Of a DNA stretch of 64,000 nucleotides, positions 18,534-45,861 are shown piece by piece. Every line of letters starts with the position of its first letter. Position 1 is the first letter of the stretch. This DNA is from Streptomyces sp. NBC_00344 (GTDB lineage Bacteria; Actinomycetota; Actinomycetes; Streptomycetales; Streptomycetaceae), in assembly GCF_036088315.1 (NCBI RefSeq), contig NZ_CP107996.1, forward strand, positions 1,756,501-1,820,500. Direction: 5' to 3'. Made by a program: the position numbers and the translations under genes. The notes under the pieces were generated by a model that searched no databases, was not told the DNA's origin, and saw nothing but the letters and a program-made list of their open reading frames with translations.

Positions 18534-18550
18534 GATAGCCGCAGGTCAGG
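18521..18550 (+). repeat. Left attachment-site candidate (attL)
   Basis: Holds CTTCGGCTTTTGAG (end of the CAP gene) and, three bases later, AGCCGCAGGTCAGG followed by ggCCT. The integrase gene ends four bases further on, as is usual for the int-proximal att site. Either repeat could be the crossover core; the other would then be an integrase arm site. Confidence 0.65.
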
Positions 18551-18553
18551 GGC

Positions 18554-19792
18554 CTATGAGCCCGTTTGGGCCGTCTCAGGGCCGTCAGCCGCATCCTCTT
18601 GGTGCATGAAAACGCGATCCACGGCGGAACGGGTGCGAGTCTCGCTGGCGGGCATCAGGTGCGTGTAGGTCCGCAGCGTGAAGCCGGGGTCATGGTGCCC
18701 CAGGTACTCGCTCAGAGCCTTGATGCTCTCGCCCGCGTCGAGCAGCACGGAGGCATAGAAGTGCCTCAGCGCATGCATCCCGTTGTCACGGCCAGCGGGC
18801 ACCGCAGCGGCCTGCAGAGCGGGCTTCCACTCTCGGTGATTGAAGCGATTCCGGTTCAGGGAGAGACCTTCAGGGCTGTAGAAGATCAGCGTTGCCGTCA
18901 CGGGTGGACCGTCCAGCGTCTTCCACGGCAAGGTGATCTCTTTCGCTGGATAGCGCGTCAGGTGAGCCGCCAAGGCGAAGGCGACCGACTCAGGCAGCGG
19001 CACGTCCCGTTCCTTGCCACCTTTGGGCGGAGCGAAGACCGGGCGATTGTGCAACAACTTGACCTGCCTCACCAGGTGAACGATCCCGCCAAGGAAGTCC
19101 ACATCCTCGACCGCCAAGCCGAAGATCTCCCCCTGTCGCATGCCGCACCCAGCCGCAGGCTCGACGAGGGCGCGGTAGCGCTCAGGCAGAGCCGCACGCA
19201 CCGCCATTACGCGATCAGCTGTCCAGGGCTTCACCTTGCGTGGATCGAGTCGGGGAGCCTTGACCGACCGGGCACTACACGGGTTCGCCCTGATGACTCG
19301 GTCCTCCACAGCGGCGGTGAACACAGTCGAGACGTGCGCGAAGATCCCACGCCGGTAGGCAGGCGACAGCCCCGAGTCTTCCAGCGTCCGCATCCACATC
19401 CGGAGGTGCGTCGGATTGAACGAGCCGATGGGACGCTTTCCCAGGTGCGGGATCACGTGGCGACGAAGCCGCATCTCGACTGACTCCCGCGTGGCGGGGT
19501 CGGTGACCTGCGTAGTCATCCACTTCGTTGCGTACTGCTCGAAGGTCACTTTCCCGGCGTCAGGGTCGATGTAGTCGCCGCGCGACATGTCGGCTTCGAT
19601 GTTCGACAACCACGTCTCTGCCTTGCGCTTCTGCTTGTCGGGAAACGATTGGCTCTTCTCGGTGCCATCAGGGCCGACGTAGCGCGCGCGGTAGCGGAGG
19701 CCGACGCCAAAGCGCTCGGTCTTGACCTTGGCTGTCTTGCCGTCAGGTCCGGTGGTGGTCTTGTACCAGCGGTCTTGGACGTGTCCGGCCAT
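18554..19792 (-). CDS. int: Tyrosine site-specific integrase of the AICE
   Basis: Phage-type recombinase of 412 residues that inserts and, with Xis, excises the element. An N-terminal AP2-like arm-binding region leads to a SAM-like core-binding domain (TFEQYATKWM onwards) and a catalytic domain with Arg in CGMRQGEIFGL, His-x-x-Arg in MHALRHFYAS, and LGHHDPGFTLRTYTHL with the second His and the nucleophile Tyr. The ATG at 19790-19792 overlaps the xis stop (TGATG). A longer open frame to 20770 runs through xis and rep in another frame and is not coding. The stop lies beside the left repeat. Confidence 0.92.
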   Translation of the reverse strand: MAGHVQDRWYKTTTGPDGKTAKVKTERFGVGLRYRARYVGPDGTEKSQSFPDKQKRKAETWLSNIEADMSRGDYIDPDAGKVTFEQYATKWMTTQVTDPATRESVEMRLRRHVIPHLGKRPIGSFNPTHLRMWMRTLEDSGLSPAYRRGIFAHVSTVFTAAVEDRVIRANPCSARSVKAPRLDPRKVKPWTADRVMAVRAALPERYRALVEPAAGCGMRQGEIFGLAVEDVDFLGGIVHLVRQVKLLHNRPVFAPPKGGKERDVPLPESVAFALAAHLTRYPAKEITLPWKTLDGPPVTATLIFYSPEGLSLNRNRFNHREWKPALQAAAVPAGRDNGMHALRHFYASVLLDAGESIKALSEYLGHHDPGFTLRTYTHLMPASETRTRSAVDRVFMHQEDAADGPETAQTGS

Positions 19793-19986
19793 CAGGCTGC
19801 CTCTTCCATGAGGGTGGCGACCCAGGCGCGTACGTCCTCGGGGTCGAAGCGGAGGTGTCGGCCGACGCGGAAGCCGCGGGGACCGGTGTGCTTGCGCCGC
19901 CACTGGTAGACGGTCTCGACCGGGACGCCGAGCAGGTCCGCAAGGTCGATCGGGGTCAGGTAGCGGTTGGGCAGGGTGCGCGCCAT
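19792..19986 (-). CDS. xis: Excisionase / helix-turn-helix DNA-binding protein
   Basis: A 64-residue MerR/Xis-like winged helix protein: YLTPIDLADLLGVPVETVYQW, then HTGPRGFRVGRHLRFDPEDV, which is the usual pattern of AICE excisionases. It should bind near the att site and direct the integrase toward excision. The ATG at 19984-19986 follows the repSA stop by two bases with GGGGAG eight bases upstream, and its stop overlaps the int start, so rep-xis-int form one coupled transcription unit. Confidence 0.88.
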   Translation of the reverse strand: MARTLPNRYLTPIDLADLLGVPVETVYQWRRKHTGPRGFRVGRHLRFDPEDVRAWVATLMEEAA

Positions 19987-19988
19987 GG

Positions 19989-21407
19989 TCACCACTCCCC
20001 GGCGTTGTGGAGGTCGGCGAGGGCTTCGCGTGCGGTGTCGCGGTTGGCTTTGAGATCGCGAGCGATCGAGGCGGCGAGCCAGGACTCGCCAGGGGTGTGG
20101 CCTTGTCCGGCGTACTCCCAGTGTGCGATGACCAGGGTGGTGTCTTCGGTGTCGTCGTCCTGGTCGAGGTCGGGCAGGCCCTTGTCCCGGCGTTCTTGTT
20201 GTGCGCGCCAGTCGGCCCGTGCGCCGCGCAGGGCTCCGAGGGTGGTCGAGTAGGTGGGGGACTTGGTGGAGAAGTGGCCCCGGAAGCCGAGCATGTGCGA
20301 CCAGTGCGCGAGGAGCCGTTCCGGGTAGTCGGCGTCCAGCTCCCAGCAGGCTTTGATGAGCCGCTTGGTGTGGTCGGGCATGTCTGGGTGGGAGTCGAGC
20401 TCCCGCAGCTCTCCCACCCGCCGGTCAAGGGTGCCGGTCGTCTCGGCTGCCTTGGTGGCGTACTTCGCGACGTAGGCGCCGACGGCTTGCTCGGTGACGT
20501 CGTCCTGGTCTTCGAGAGCGCCGATGGGCTGGACATCGATCTGTGTTCCCCACCCGAGAATCCGGGCCGGGAAACGGCCGGCGGAAGCGAGCGGGACTGT
20601 GGCCCGTTTCGCGGCGGCGCGGATCGCGTCATCCAGGAGCGCGACCGTGGCCCAGGCCGGGGCTGGGGTGTCGGGGCCGTCCGGTCCGTCGATACGGATG
20701 ATGGCGTGAAAGTGGACAGCGCCACGCTTCTGGAACTCGGCAACCTTCCCGAACGAGATCCGGGCCGCATCCCGCAGCGCGGCTTGAGTGAGTCCGGCGC
20801 GGGCGGCGACTTCCCGTCGAAGGTAGATCGTGAAGCGCTGCCAGAGCTGCCCGGCGTGGTTGTTCCACAGGACCGCGCCCGCGTAGTCGTACCGGTCGGG
20901 GTCGAGTGCCGTACCGAGGGCGGGGTCGTTTTCCGGGTGGGTGGTGCCGCAGCGGCAGCGGCCGGTGGTGGGCCGGTTGTGTACCGGGCCGAACGAGGGC
21001 GCGGTGAGCGTCGCGAAGACGCGGGGGCGCTCTGCCACCGTGGCCGGGATGCCCTTGCCGCCGACGAGTCCGGCCATGATCAGCTGGTAGGTGTCCCCGG
21101 CGTAGGTCCACGCGCAGGAAGGGCAGCGGGAGGCACGGCGGTTGCCGCACGCGATCCGTAACCGGCCGCCCGGCTCACTGCTGGTGGAGTACTCGAAGAA
21201 CTCCCCGGTACGCGTGTCCACGGTCCGTGAGTGGCCGCTCAGGTGGATCGGGTTGGCGCAGCCACCGGTACGGCGTACCTGCTCCTGCCAGCGCTCGAAG
21301 CCGGGGGCCGAGGTGACCCGCAGGGCGTCGGACAGGGTGGTGGGGTCGGTACCCACGGCGGCCGCGACGTCAGTCAGGGCCGCCGTGGCGACGGGGAAGC
21401 GGCTCAC
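19989..21407 (-). CDS. repSA: RepSA-like rolling-circle replication initiator
   Basis: Initiator protein of 472 residues resembling RepSA of pSAM2. It has Cys-rich zinc-type motifs (CGNRRASRCPSC; CRCGTTHPE), the metal-binding HUH motif in RGAVHFHAIIRIDG, and the catalytic-type tyrosine motif YVAKYATKAAE. Such enzymes nick the double-strand origin and stay linked to the 5' end. The GTG at 21405-21407 overlaps the stop of the upstream gene (GTGA). No frameshift is visible. Replication of the excised circle is therefore expected, with the hairpin at 23368-23519 as a candidate minus-strand origin. Confidence 0.88.
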   Translation of the reverse strand: MSRFPVATAALTDVAAAVGTDPTTLSDALRVTSAPGFERWQEQVRRTGGCANPIHLSGHSRTVDTRTGEFFEYSTSSEPGGRLRIACGNRRASRCPSCAWTYAGDTYQLIMAGLVGGKGIPATVAERPRVFATLTAPSFGPVHNRPTTGRCRCGTTHPENDPALGTALDPDRYDYAGAVLWNNHAGQLWQRFTIYLRREVAARAGLTQAALRDAARISFGKVAEFQKRGAVHFHAIIRIDGPDGPDTPAPAWATVALLDDAIRAAAKRATVPLASAGRFPARILGWGTQIDVQPIGALEDQDDVTEQAVGAYVAKYATKAAETTGTLDRRVGELRELDSHPDMPDHTKRLIKACWELDADYPERLLAHWSHMLGFRGHFSTKSPTYSTTLGALRGARADWRAQQERRDKGLPDLDQDDDTEDTTLVIAHWEYAGQGHTPGESWLAASIARDLKANRDTAREALADLHNAGEW

Positions 21408-22009
21408 GCGGCGACCCCCGAGCCCACGGGCTGGGACAGCACCTTGTTGAGGGCGCGGAAGTTGCGCTCCACCTCGTAGGAGGCCTGCATGATCCGGGCG
21501 CGGTCGAAGCGGGCGCAGTAGGTGTCCCACACGGCCGGGGTGTCGGTGTTGTTCTCGCAGTGGGCCCAGAACTCCTGAAGCTGTACCGCCTTCTGCGCCA
21601 CGTGCTCGTACCCGACGAGGTCCAGCCCACGGCCGATGAGGACGATCAACTCGGCGAGCTGGGGCCGGGACTTGGTGGTGTAGTCCGAGCAGTACAGGGC
21701 GGTGACCCACTCAATGGTGGACAGCCCAGCCAGGGTGATCGAGGGCAGGACGTTGCCGGTTGCCCAGTCGATCGGGCGCGAGACCGGGCACGGCGTGGTC
21801 TCTTCGTCAACCTCGTGCACGAGGACGCCACGGCCGTGGTAGTTGATCCAGCCCCAGCCCTCCACCTCAGCGCCGCACGTCATGCACGGCGACGGGATGA
21901 CCTCGGCATCGTCCGACCGGGACAGCGGAGCCGACAGAGGCACCGACGCAGTCTCGACAGGCCGGACGAGAGACAGAGCGTGCGAAGGGGTGAGTGTCGC
22001 AGGCATCAT
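21404..22009 (-). CDS. AICE accessory protein of unknown function
   Basis: I do not recognise a named family. The 201-residue protein has a CMTCGAEVEGWGW motif that resembles half of a zinc ribbon, a TTPCPVS segment, and a helical C-terminal half (LAELIVLIGRGLDLVGYEHV; FDRARIMQASYEVERNF). Genes of this size commonly sit just ahead of repSA in these elements. The start at 22007-22009 has GGGAG five bases upstream. It overlaps repSA by four bases, so it is the first gene of the rep-xis-int unit and is divergent from the XRE regulator. A role in replication control is only a guess from position. Confidence 0.7.
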   Translation of the reverse strand: MMPATLTPSHALSLVRPVETASVPLSAPLSRSDDAEVIPSPCMTCGAEVEGWGWINYHGRGVLVHEVDEETTPCPVSRPIDWATGNVLPSITLAGLSTIEWVTALYCSDYTTKSRPQLAELIVLIGRGLDLVGYEHVAQKAVQLQEFWAHCENNTDTPAVWDTYCARFDRARIMQASYEVERNFRALNKVLSQPVGSGVAA

Positions 22010-22090
22010 GGAAGCTCCCTCAGGGGATGGGGAGCGGCGAATCTGCTTGGCGGTGGGTGCGCCGCTCCCGACGTTTTCGTCCTCTGCGTG

Positions 22091-22150
22091 AGGACTAATA
22101 CTGCCTCTAGTAGTAGAGGGCGGATCCGTCCTGTTGTCAAGGACTAGAAC
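22091..22150. promoter_or_regulatory. Divergent promoter region with operator-like repeats
   Basis: Contains the palindrome CCTCTA-GTAG-TAGAGG (22104-22119) and a direct repeat AGGACTAATAC (22091-22101) / AGGACTAGAAC (22140-22150) 49 bases apart. It lies between the rep operon and the XRE gene, where a repressor that chooses between the integrated and replicating states would act. Confidence 0.5.
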
Positions 22151-22169
22151 GTCCCCTCATGATGGGGGC

Positions 22170-22766
22170 ATGGAAATGGGCGAAATCATCAAGCAGCGCA
22201 GGGCCGAGCTGGGCATGTCCCAGGCGGACCTGGCCATTGCCGCAGGCGTCGACAAGCGGCAGATCAGGCGGTACGAGGCGGGAGAGCAGCAGCCCGTACT
22301 CTCCCTGGCCGTTGCTATCGCCCAGGCGCTGAAGATCACGGTCAACGAGTTGGCGGGCATGCCTTCGCACCGCGTGAACTTGTCCGGCGACTGGTGGATG
22401 TCCTGGCAGACGTCGAAGGACGGCGTCGAGGTCATCACCGCTCAGGAAGTCCGCTTCCACCAGCAGGACGAGCTGATCCACCTCGACACGGTCACGCGCG
22501 GGATCACGGTCGAAGACGGCGGCTTCATGTGGAACGGTGAACTACGCCTGTGGGACAACGAGATCCTGATGGGCTGGTACGTCGCCAACGAAGGCCCCGT
22601 GCGCTCGAAGGGGACTCTGTACTTCGTGCTGCACCCTCACGGCATCCACATGTCCGGCCGCTGGGTCGGTCTCAGCTACGACGGCAAGATCATGACCGGC
22701 TGGGGGGCCGCTGCCCGCAGCGAGGAAGCATGCCGCGACCTGATCGCAGCACTCAAGACGGACTAA
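22170..22766 (+). CDS. XRE-family regulator with a beta-rich C-terminal sensor-like domain
   Basis: Residues 1-65 form a Cro/CI-type helix-turn-helix (IIKQRRAELGMSQADLAIA, then RQIRRYEAGEQQP). Residues 70-198 are a beta-rich domain with repeated Gly-Asp/Trp strands: LSGDWWMSW, GELRLWDNEILMGWY, MSGRWVGLSYDGKIMTGWG. The pattern looks like a small beta-barrel that could bind a ligand; I cannot name the fold. The ATG at 22170 follows GGGGG closely. It is divergent from the rep operon and four codons ahead of the CutA-like gene, so it is the likely master switch of the element. Confidence 0.8.
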   Translation: MEMGEIIKQRRAELGMSQADLAIAAGVDKRQIRRYEAGEQQPVLSLAVAIAQALKITVNELAGMPSHRVNLSGDWWMSWQTSKDGVEVITAQEVRFHQQDELIHLDTVTRGITVEDGGFMWNGELRLWDNEILMGWYVANEGPVRSKGTLYFVLHPHGIHMSGRWVGLSYDGKIMTGWGAAARSEEACRDLIAALKTD

Positions 22767-22775
22767 GGAGTCCCC

Positions 22776-23105
22776 GTGGCAGACGTTCGACTCTGCGCCG
22801 TAACGATCACAGCGCCAGAAGAGGCGTGGCTTGCCGACTTCGTACGCAGCCTGGTGGCCGACCGCTTGTGTGCCGGGGCGCACATCACGTCACCGATCCG
22901 GTCCATCTACCGATGGCAGAGCGAAATCTACGATCGCCCCGAGGCTCACGTCACGCTGCACACCAGGGCCGAGCACGTACCGGCGATCATCGCCCGAGCC
23001 AACGACCAGCACCCCTACGAAGTCCCGTGCGTCGTCGCCACGGAGATCACGGACGCTGCACCGGATTACGCCGCCTGGATCGTCGAGCAGACCGAACGGC
23101 CATGA
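22776..23105 (+). CDS. CutA1-like protein carried by the element
   Basis: A 109-residue protein with the CutA1 fold signatures IRSIYRWQSEIYD and HPYEVPCVVATEI, and the final WIVEQT. CutA proteins are trimeric, PII-like in structure, and linked loosely to metal tolerance. The GTG at 22776 has AAGGAG seven bases upstream and follows the XRE stop by nine bases, so the two are co-transcribed. It is more divergent at its N-terminus than chromosomal CutA and may have been adapted to a small-molecule or partner-sensing role in the element; that is inference. Confidence 0.8.
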   Translation: MADVRLCAVTITAPEEAWLADFVRSLVADRLCAGAHITSPIRSIYRWQSEIYDRPEAHVTLHTRAEHVPAIIARANDQHPYEVPCVVATEITDAAPDYAAWIVEQTERP

Positions 23106-23677: not shown

Positions 23678-23722
23678 AGCCGCAGGTCAGGAACCTGAAG
23701 CGTCACTTCTTCGGCTTCTGAG
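23678..23722 (+). repeat. Right attachment-site candidate (attR)
   Basis: Carries the second copies of AGCCGCAGGTCAGG (23678-23691, followed by aaCCT) and CTTCGGCTTCTGAG (23709-23722). The latter reads TTC GGC TTC TGA in phase with the CAP-gene ending Phe-Gly-Phe-stop, suggesting it is the displaced original gene end or the element's mimic of it. Confidence 0.65.
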
Positions 23723-45366: not shown

Positions 45367-45377
45367 CTTCCATCCTG

Positions 45378-45450
45378 TACCCCCGACCGGATTCGAACCG
45401 GCGCTACTGCCGTGAGAGGGCAGCGTGCTAGGCCGCTACACAACGGGGGC
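45378..45450 (-). tRNA. tRNA-Glu (CUC), third Glu gene of the array
   Basis: Cloverleaf with anticodon loop CTCTCAC (anticodon CUC), T-loop GGTTCGAATCC, acceptor GCCCCCG/CGGGGGT (G1-U72), discriminator A. CCA is not encoded. It is last in the minus-strand array and is followed by the TTCG-loop terminator. Confidence 0.97.
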
Positions 45451-45469
45451 GTGTACTACAGATGTTGCG

Positions 45470-45541
45470 CTGGGCTACCAGGACTCGAACCTAGAATGAC
45501 GGTACCAGAAACCGTTGTGTTGCCAATTACACCATAGCCCA
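45470..45541 (-). tRNA. tRNA-Gln (CUG), second Gln gene of the array
   Basis: Anticodon loop TTCTGGT (anticodon CUG), T-loop GGTTCGAGTCC, acceptor TGGGCTA/TAGCCCA with a U1-A72 pair and discriminator G. The U1-A72 pair is the known recognition feature for the GatCAB amidotransferase, consistent with indirect Gln-tRNA formation. CCA is not encoded. Confidence 0.97.
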
Positions 45542-45549
45542 TGGTGGAG

Positions 45550-45622
45550 TACCCCCGACCGGATTCGAACCGGCGCTACTGCCGTGAGAGGGCAGCGTGC
45601 TAGGCCGCTACACAACGGGGGC
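45550..45622 (-). tRNA. tRNA-Glu (CUC), second Glu gene of the array
   Basis: Identical in the mature region to the Glu gene at 45378-45450; only eight bases separate its end from the tRNA-Gln at 45470-45541, so both come from one precursor. Confidence 0.97.
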
Positions 45623-45683
45623 CCTGGCGATCCTGCATCAAGTCCATCGGGTGCGACCCTGATGATCTCGCGGGAAGGATCTG

Positions 45684-45756
45684 TACCCCCGACCGGATTC
45701 GAACCGGCGCTACTGCCGTGAGAGGGCAGCGTGCTAGGCCGCTACACAACGGGGGC
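45684..45756 (-). tRNA. tRNA-Glu (CUC), first Glu gene of the array
   Basis: Third identical copy of tRNA-Glu(CUC), 61 bases upstream of the next Glu gene and 33 bases after the first Gln gene. Confidence 0.97.
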
Positions 45757-45789
45757 TTGTACTTCAAGGTGGTTACTGCTGATCTTGCG

Positions 45790-45861
45790 CTGGGCTACCA
45801 GGACTCGAACCTAGAATGACGGTACCAGAAACCGTTGTGTTGCCAATTACACCATAGCCCA
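45790..45861 (-). tRNA. tRNA-Gln (CUG), first Gln gene of the array
   Basis: Identical in the mature region to the Gln gene at 45470-45541. It is the promoter-proximal member of the five-gene array, with the HAD gene about 90 bases upstream on the same strand. Confidence 0.97.

Follow-up and report, generated by a model that had tools for sequence, protein, structure and literature searches.

A putative repressor with a barrel-like tail and a divergent CutA neighbour in a pSAM2-like integrative element of Streptomyces

The described system closest in layout to the locus presented here is ImmR-ImmA of ICEBs1 from Bacillus subtilis, in which, according to the excerpted text of the source, an XRE repressor sits beside the partner that inactivates it and against the excision operon, and two promoters pointing in opposite directions carry, in their regulatory regions, six sites to which ImmR binds (PMC8960796). 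The closest in kind of element is pSAM2, whose regulation, as the excerpts of another source give it, runs through the activator Pra and through KorSA, a GntR repressor of pra (PMC3218068). The same excerpts name a CutA1 with a likely metal-resistance function in the Frankia AICE FeuI6863, and name no pairing of it (PMC3218068).

Our locus shares with ImmR-ImmA an XRE protein beside a partner gene, an excision operon on the other side, and several sites in between; with pSAM2, to go by the excerpts of PMC3218068, it shares the type of element and, as the target of control, the rep-xis-int operon. Unlike in ICEBs1, the partner is a CutA protein rather than a metallopeptidase or an adjacent cleaving protease, the operators differ, and the tail of the regulator is modelled as a closed barrel where ImmR has two predicted helices. 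Unlike in pSAM2, what faces the operon is one XRE-barrel protein together with CutA, and Pfam scans of the genes of the 5.1-kb element recognised neither korSA nor pra. New here is thus an unusual candidate sensor in the repressor-plus-partner switch of an integrative element, itself a known kind of switch. Neither the pair nor the barrel nor the operators turned up in the open-access full text that we searched; subscription literature was mostly outside the scope of this search.

The window, i.e., the whole stretch of 64,000 nucleotides that was analysed, comes from the 7.06-Mb genome of Streptomyces sp. NBC_00344. The element lies within it as follows:

18537..18555 (+), att-like repeat at the left border, just past a CAP-domain gene, 17/19 identical to 23678-23696
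18554..19792 (-), tyrosine integrase, 412 aa from a likely ATG at 19792 (Phage_integrase 5.6e-18)
19792..19995 (-), excisionase-like HTH protein (Xis), 67 aa (HTH_17 6.1e-13; TIGR01764 33.7 bits, cut-off 28.8)
19989..21407 (-), RepSA replication initiator with a likely GTG start at 21407 (NF041486 783.7 bits, cut-off 700; PF20199 1.9e-151)
21404..22009 (-), divergent orf of 201 aa that opens the facing operon, without match to any family
23678..23696 (+), att-like repeat at the right border, 17/19 identical to the left copy

The divergent orf, repSA, xis and int form an overlapping operon that faces the regulator-cutA pair from the opposite strand, and the presence of RepSA, Xis and a tyrosine integrase in one operon assigns the element to the AICEs. 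The 19-base repeat is one of ten repeat families found and is weak taken alone. In ten of eleven relatives, however, the CAP-domain gene and an HxlR gene lie 71-983 bases apart, compared with 5.3 kb here (the stretch examined from the eleventh showed no CAP gene). With the two genes this close, and no match to the regulator in any of the 11 stretches, these relatives provide the empty site of the element; L093, which is without the element, has an 11-base core of the repeat after its CAP gene. Since the repeat coincides with the borders shown by the relatives, it delimits a pSAM2-like element of approximately 5.1 kb. Scanning the genes that lie between the att-like repeats brought up no FtsK/SpoIIIE-like Tra, and without a recognisable Tra we refer to this copy as an AICE-derived or minimal element. 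We found no tRNA target of the element; the window contains five tRNA genes (Glu, Gln, Glu, Glu, Gln; 45377-45861, minus strand) with no link to it. The divergent orf had no match in Pfam, NCBIfam, PHROG or PADLOC, genes at the same position in other scanned loci likewise have no Pfam match, and the orf of the window overlaps repSA. The best explanation of the pair, which we favour by a small measure as part of the whole reading developed below, is that it constitutes the regulatory module of this pSAM2-type integrative element.

The pair itself comprises:

22170..22766 (+), gene of the predicted XRE-barrel repressor, ATG start, 198 aa (Pfam HTH_3 4e-12; AlphaFold pLDDT 91.5)
22170-22367 (+), residues 1-66, its HTH (Pfam HTH_3), with the domain boundary at 22368
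22368-22763 (+), residues 67-198, its tail, an eight-stranded barrel and a C-terminal helix in the AlphaFold model
22776..23105 (+), CutA1-family protein, 109 aa, GTG start (PF03091), of an element-specific clade (H36, H62, R64, C85)

A preliminary description of this DNA had proposed a regulator in which a CI-type DNA-binding domain is joined to an unassigned domain of about 130 residues with beta strands such as LSGDWWMSW and GRWVGLSYDGKIMTGWG. This is indeed what we found: HTH_3 covers residues 7-61 (E 4e-12, Pfam scan) and is a five-helix CI/Cro (XRE) domain of the 434 Cro/P22 c2 type, and the 132-residue tail, which contains both quoted strands, has no family in Pfam, NCBIfam, PHROGs or PADLOC scans. 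The nearest tail matches were no better than chance (Pfam ITGAX, E 0.24; PHROG 7452, E 0.033), and 33 tail sequences scanned singly against Pfam gave no family with E < 0.05. A protein search with the regulator returned 1704 proteins at E <= 0.001, which we do not count as barrel proteins because just 120 of them are listed and weaker ones may match via the HTH. Among these 120 matches, the query itself aside, the relatives are 69-83% identical, the closest named one being a Streptomyces protein (83%). Two phage records also match, but via the HTH only, and phage relatives of the regulator were therefore rejected.

AlphaFold modelled the whole regulator with pLDDT 91.5 and its tail as a closed eight-stranded barrel (strands between residues 73 and 182) followed by a 13-residue helix (185-197), the remainder being the HTH only. 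The tail alone gave pLDDT 91.7 and pTM 0.84, so that the term beta-barrel-like used for it previously was well chosen. The closest natural folds are Cap15 (the CBASS cyclic-dinucleotide receptor), an amine-dehydrogenase barrel and avidins, with designed barrels tying; in a Foldseek search with the barrel alone, Cap15 was the best match at E 1.0e-3 and none fell below E 0.001. A match to a known non-sensory fold had been named as grounds for giving up the sensor idea, and the nearest natural folds are instead ligand binders. In a viral structure library, the matches listed for the regulator model were HTH matches. The model thus supports a tail of the ligand-binding barrel type, and we consider it somewhat probable that the barrel binds a small ligand. 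Ten tail residues are invariant or nearly so: W75, W76, W79, Q80, D129, E131, R145, K147, H155 and H157.

The modelled tail is like Cap15 and S-2TM-beta (PF18153) in its eight-stranded meander barrel, a likeness in which designed and amine-dehydrogenase barrels tie. It is unlike these proteins, Panoptes OptE included, in having no PF18153 match and in carrying an HTH where they have two membrane helices; unlike Cap15 systems, this element also has no nucleotidyltransferase gene. Scanning 33 barrel members for PF18153 gave no match, and an hhalign comparison of the PF18153 alignment with the 33 barrels gave a probability of 0.4 and E 0.16. The PF18153 alignment has 36 rows, largely from one actinobacterial subfamily, and the two alignments have Neff values of 2.7 and 3.7. 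Because both are shallow, the hhalign result lends homology to Cap15 no support but counts little against it, and we set homology aside as a sequence-based assignment. In its architecture, an XRE domain joined to a small beta domain, the regulator also resembles the XRE-cupin regulators as they appear in the excerpts of PMC7901475. Unlike the cupin of those proteins, the domain here is modelled as a closed, Cap15/avidin-like barrel. We know of no CutA in XRE-cupin systems.

The cutA gene begins nine bases past the regulator stop on the same strand, as had been stated previously (22776-23105, plus strand; PF03091, E 1.7e-27). The protein scored 95.6 bits against PF03091 (cut-off 22.4) and 66.1 bits against the NCBIfam CutA model, below its cut-off of 120. 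CutA proteins are spread over bacteria, archaea and eukaryotes, and their role is unsettled; a 2021 study reportedly presented data that speak against a part in heavy-metal tolerance and suggest carriage of small molecules or signalling. The CutA described here is like the CutA1 family (E. coli and Thermus CutA) in fold family and core motifs (Y45, W47, H79, Y81, P84, Y98 and W101 are retained), and unlike it in its H36/H62/R64/C85 signature, its NCBIfam score below cut-off and its operon with a repressor-like gene. In window numbering, chromosomal CutAs have Q36, K62 and E85, each in 30/30 sequences, whereas element CutAs have H36 (19/20), H62 (18/20) and C85 (15/20) in their place, together with R64, and with A57 where the chromosomal proteins have W (20 rows). 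These counts compare 20 of 23 element rows (L040, L054 and L055 dropped) with the 30 best-scoring chromosomal loci from 111 genomes with a match. The CutA of the window follows the element pattern, with H36, H62 and C85 and without the canonical Q36/K62/E85; in the alignment, L036 and L044 have Y62 together with H85. The computed tree likewise separates the element CutAs (23 rows) from the chromosomal ones (8 rows) with support 100/100, in an unrooted tree with 8 chromosomal rows and a bootstrap that has not settled. Judged from sequence, H/H/C could form a metal site or an altered ligand site.

The pairing of the two genes recurs. A CutA match lies within ~40 bases past the regulator stop on the same strand in 24 of 35 named loci, several of which end early at contig ends, and in 12 of these 24 the two genes share a 4-base start-stop overlap. 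The survey of pairs suggested in the preliminary description therefore speaks against uniqueness to this genome, which it had offered as a refutation, and the pairing is beyond chance. RepSA relatives were found near 14/24 paired loci, and RepSA, integrase or Xis near 16/24, and the pair ranges from Streptomyces to Pseudonocardia and Nocardia. Across the class, the tail occurs in 18 of 394 genomes and CutA (PF03091) in 111 of 394; 11 of the 18 match over the tail only, with another HTH in front in the ORFs read, and CutA adjoins in five of the 18, the window genome included. Within the genus, two of 392 genomes have the tail at E <= 1e-25, both with CutA.

The remaining named loci are eight from Frankia/Parafrankia, with a different HTH and without CutA, and three others without CutA. 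Altogether, barrels without CutA were seen in the eight Frankia loci, in L027, L050, L051 and L104 and in the two mycobacterial plasmids examined, so the barrel cannot always need CutA. In the Frankia and Parafrankia chromosomes (L038, L039, L042, L043, L045-L048), the barrel is part of a longer protein with a different XRE domain and lies in two conserved neighbourhoods, one with XdhC, MobA-like and luciferase-like genes, with no CutA or array. On the mycobacterial plasmids (L105:2493-4594, L106:1484-3615), another XRE gene, overlapping it, and a WhiB gene precede the barrel regulator, and no CutA is present. A viral contig of 97.9 kb carries one more barrel regulator that has no CutA (L104:6001-6648).

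We next consider whether CutA belongs functionally to the regulator. The regulator could be the repressor of the element while CutA is host cargo, for metal tolerance or housekeeping, that is merely co-transcribed. The proposal of heavy-metal resistance for the CutA1 of the Frankia AICE (excerpts of PMC3218068) would fit such cargo, as would the absence of a second CutA from the genome, in which a profile search found the element CutA as the sole PF03091 match, and the barrels that occur elsewhere without CutA. Cargo would not, however, be expected to form a separate clade with H/H/C for Q/K/E (23 vs. 8 rows, 100/100), nor to accompany the regulator, with overlapping stop and start codons, all the way from Streptomyces to Pseudonocardia and Nocardia, and the title of the CutA study states that its data do not support heavy-metal tolerance. 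In addition, CutA distances follow those of the barrel. In 20 loci, the barrel-CutA distance correlation was r 0.59 (reached by 0/2000 permutations), compared with 0.24 for HTH-CutA (140/2000 permutations) and 0.31 for HTH-barrel. The partial correlations were 0.56 for barrel-CutA given the HTH and 0.08 for HTH-CutA given the barrel, and with the barrel subsampled to 64 columns (19 loci) the value never came down to that of the HTH in 200 draws. In the 12 loci with Rep, regulator-CutA gave 0.62 vs. 0.31 for regulator-Rep and 0.23 for CutA-Rep, so that Rep tracks neither of the two closely. The set of 20 is the full set of 23 loci without the very divergent L052, L054 and L055, and that of 19 is additionally without L040; the contrast between barrel and HTH depends on dropping these three divergent loci, since with all 23 loci the values are 0.86 for barrel-CutA, 0.66 for HTH-CutA (0/2000) and 0.69 for HTH-barrel. 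The HTH is short and conserved, which calls for caution, but the better tracking of CutA by the barrel than by the HTH points to barrel and CutA as a functional unit. We consider the cargo explanation unlikely, and we put CutA acting through the barrel at an even chance.

Between the pair and the facing operon lies a predicted operator array:

22069..22082 (no strand), operator CGACGTTTTCGTCC, 1 mismatch (motif count)
22092..22105 (no strand), degenerate operator GGACTAATACTGCC with 2 mismatches, keeping the register of the array (motif inspection)
22118..22131 (no strand), operator GGGCGGATCCGTCC, 1 mismatch (motif count)
22134..22163 (+), promoter-like TTGTCA-18-CATGAT assigned to the regulator gene (one occurrence, against 0.1 expected in shuffled sequence)
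22141..22154 (no strand), exact operator GGACTAGAACGTCC, lying between -35 and -10 in the regulator promoter (motif count)

Relative to the regulator start, the exact site of the window is at -29, inside the promoter-like sequence, those with one mismatch are at -52 and -101, and the one with two is at -78. The regulator thus has palindromic operators, as predicted sites, at its own promoter. GGAC-N6-GTCC with at most one mismatch occurs at 102 sites in the 250 bp upstream of the regulator in 26 loci, compared with 6.0 expected from dinucleotide shuffles; the loci counted are those in which the motif had first been spotted by eye. The 26 loci are those left of 36 (35 named ones plus the window) without the eight Frankia loci and the truncated L053 and L056, and the regulator start used for L051 is a guess. 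Three or more operators were present in 20/26 loci, in the divergent promoter region, and neighbouring sites were 20-24 bp apart in 61/74 cases. The eight Frankia loci with the barrel on another HTH served as a control and did not exceed background, with 5 sites over 8 x 550 bp, and L027, L050 and L051, which are without CutA, have no operator sites upstream. In nine further loci, we found three sites in L008 and L101, two in L102, one each in L018 and L020, and none in L019, L021, L103 or L104. Two or more sites are thus present in just three of these nine, and CutA is adjacent in six, including L018 and L020 with one site each and L103 with none.

The array of the window is weak, with one exact site, two with one mismatch and one with two, and the window as a whole has five exact motifs vs. 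3.26 expected. Outside the array, exact motifs are few and scattered (14 loci). One at 22760-22773, over the regulator stop and the cutA ribosome-binding region, was considered as an internal control site; we treat it as chance because none of 24 other loci has one. By eye, GAC-N6-GTC palindromes were seen upstream in Nocardia, mycobacterial and L103 loci, and these may be a variant of the operator. As the start point of the transcript would coincide with the start codon, the regulator transcript is probably leaderless. To the left of the operators, a strong hairpin at 22030-22069 has 10 perfect outer pairs (-28.6 kcal/mol) and is followed by TTTT-containing sequence; it would fall in the leader of the divergent operon. 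Hairpins below -21 kcal/mol with a T-rich tail were present at that place in 8/22 loci, window included. A terminator scan of the window found none.

The regular spacing of the sites could also be read in terms of a barrel that senses nothing and acts as a dimerisation or higher-order assembly domain on neighbouring operators, with CutA tuning it by contact. At 20-24 bp, approximately two helical turns, the spacing would suit cooperative binding; moreover, what the fold search matched is a generic barrel, designed ones included, and Cap15 barrels oligomerise according to excerpts of two reports (PMC12657218, PMC12657230). The tail, however, has many invariant polar and aromatic residues, apparently more than a scaffold usually needs, and we regard this assignment as improbable.

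According to the reading that we prefer, the regulator would be a CI/ImmR-like repressor acting on the GGAC-N6-GTCC array between its own promoter and the opposed operon that ends in repSA-xis-int. Binding of the regulator to these predicted sites would shut off replication and excision, and would limit synthesis of the regulator itself. The barrel would be a sensor that either binds a small molecule or is contacted by CutA carrying a ligand, with a resulting change in repression, and CutA, encoded on the same transcript, would be the partner of the barrel as a ligand carrier, a ligand sensor or an anti-repressor, occupying the position of the protease ImmA next to ImmR in ICEBs1. We consider it likely that the regulator represses the facing operon; the whole reading, in which this repressor controls excision and replication and senses through barrel and CutA, is in our estimate only a little better than evenly balanced. 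A switch between the integrated and replicating states had been suggested previously, as a ligand-sensing one. The switch part fits the orientation of the pair towards the rep-xis-int operon and the operator array, and the pair probably decides when the element wakes; the ligand part is our inference from the barrel and CutA.

The other earlier suggestion, an accessory function such as defence, found no support: the tail, CutA and the divergent orf have no PADLOC match and the element contains no effector. An anti-phage or element-exclusion module rather than a master switch would agree with Cap15, a CBASS receptor, as the closest natural barrel in Foldseek, and with the pairing of a beta-fold recognition domain with a PII-like protein in fungal allorecognition (excerpts of PMC10890737). 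The 5.1-kb element has no nuclease, membrane or NAD-consuming partner, however, PADLOC gives generic HTH hits for the regulator alone and none for CutA, and the operators sit between the pair and the replication-excision operon; we thus consider such a module very improbable. A more specific form of our preferred reading is a two-protein chemical switch, in which the H/H/C CutA would capture a host-made nucleotide or metal-bound metabolite and hand it to, or dock on, the Cap15-like barrel built into the repressor, so that excision and replication would occur in a given host state. We offer this tentatively, as one possibility of fairly low probability. If true, a Cap15-type receptor would switch transcription rather than kill, and a CutA would have its first assignable job.

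Irrespective of this, a CutA is here tied by gene order and evolution to a likely repressor whose output is of a known kind and whose operators are visible, which makes ligand and partner testable by a plain reporter assay. AICEs would gain a regulator other than Pra/KorSA, with candidate binding sites in hand, and a Cap15/avidin-like receptor shape would be in use as a module on DNA-binding proteins. Lastly, in the Micromonosporaceae loci L034 (10756-11163), L031 and L032, a Glyoxalase_6 (VOC) gene lies directly 3' of CutA, extending the pair to a three-gene unit.
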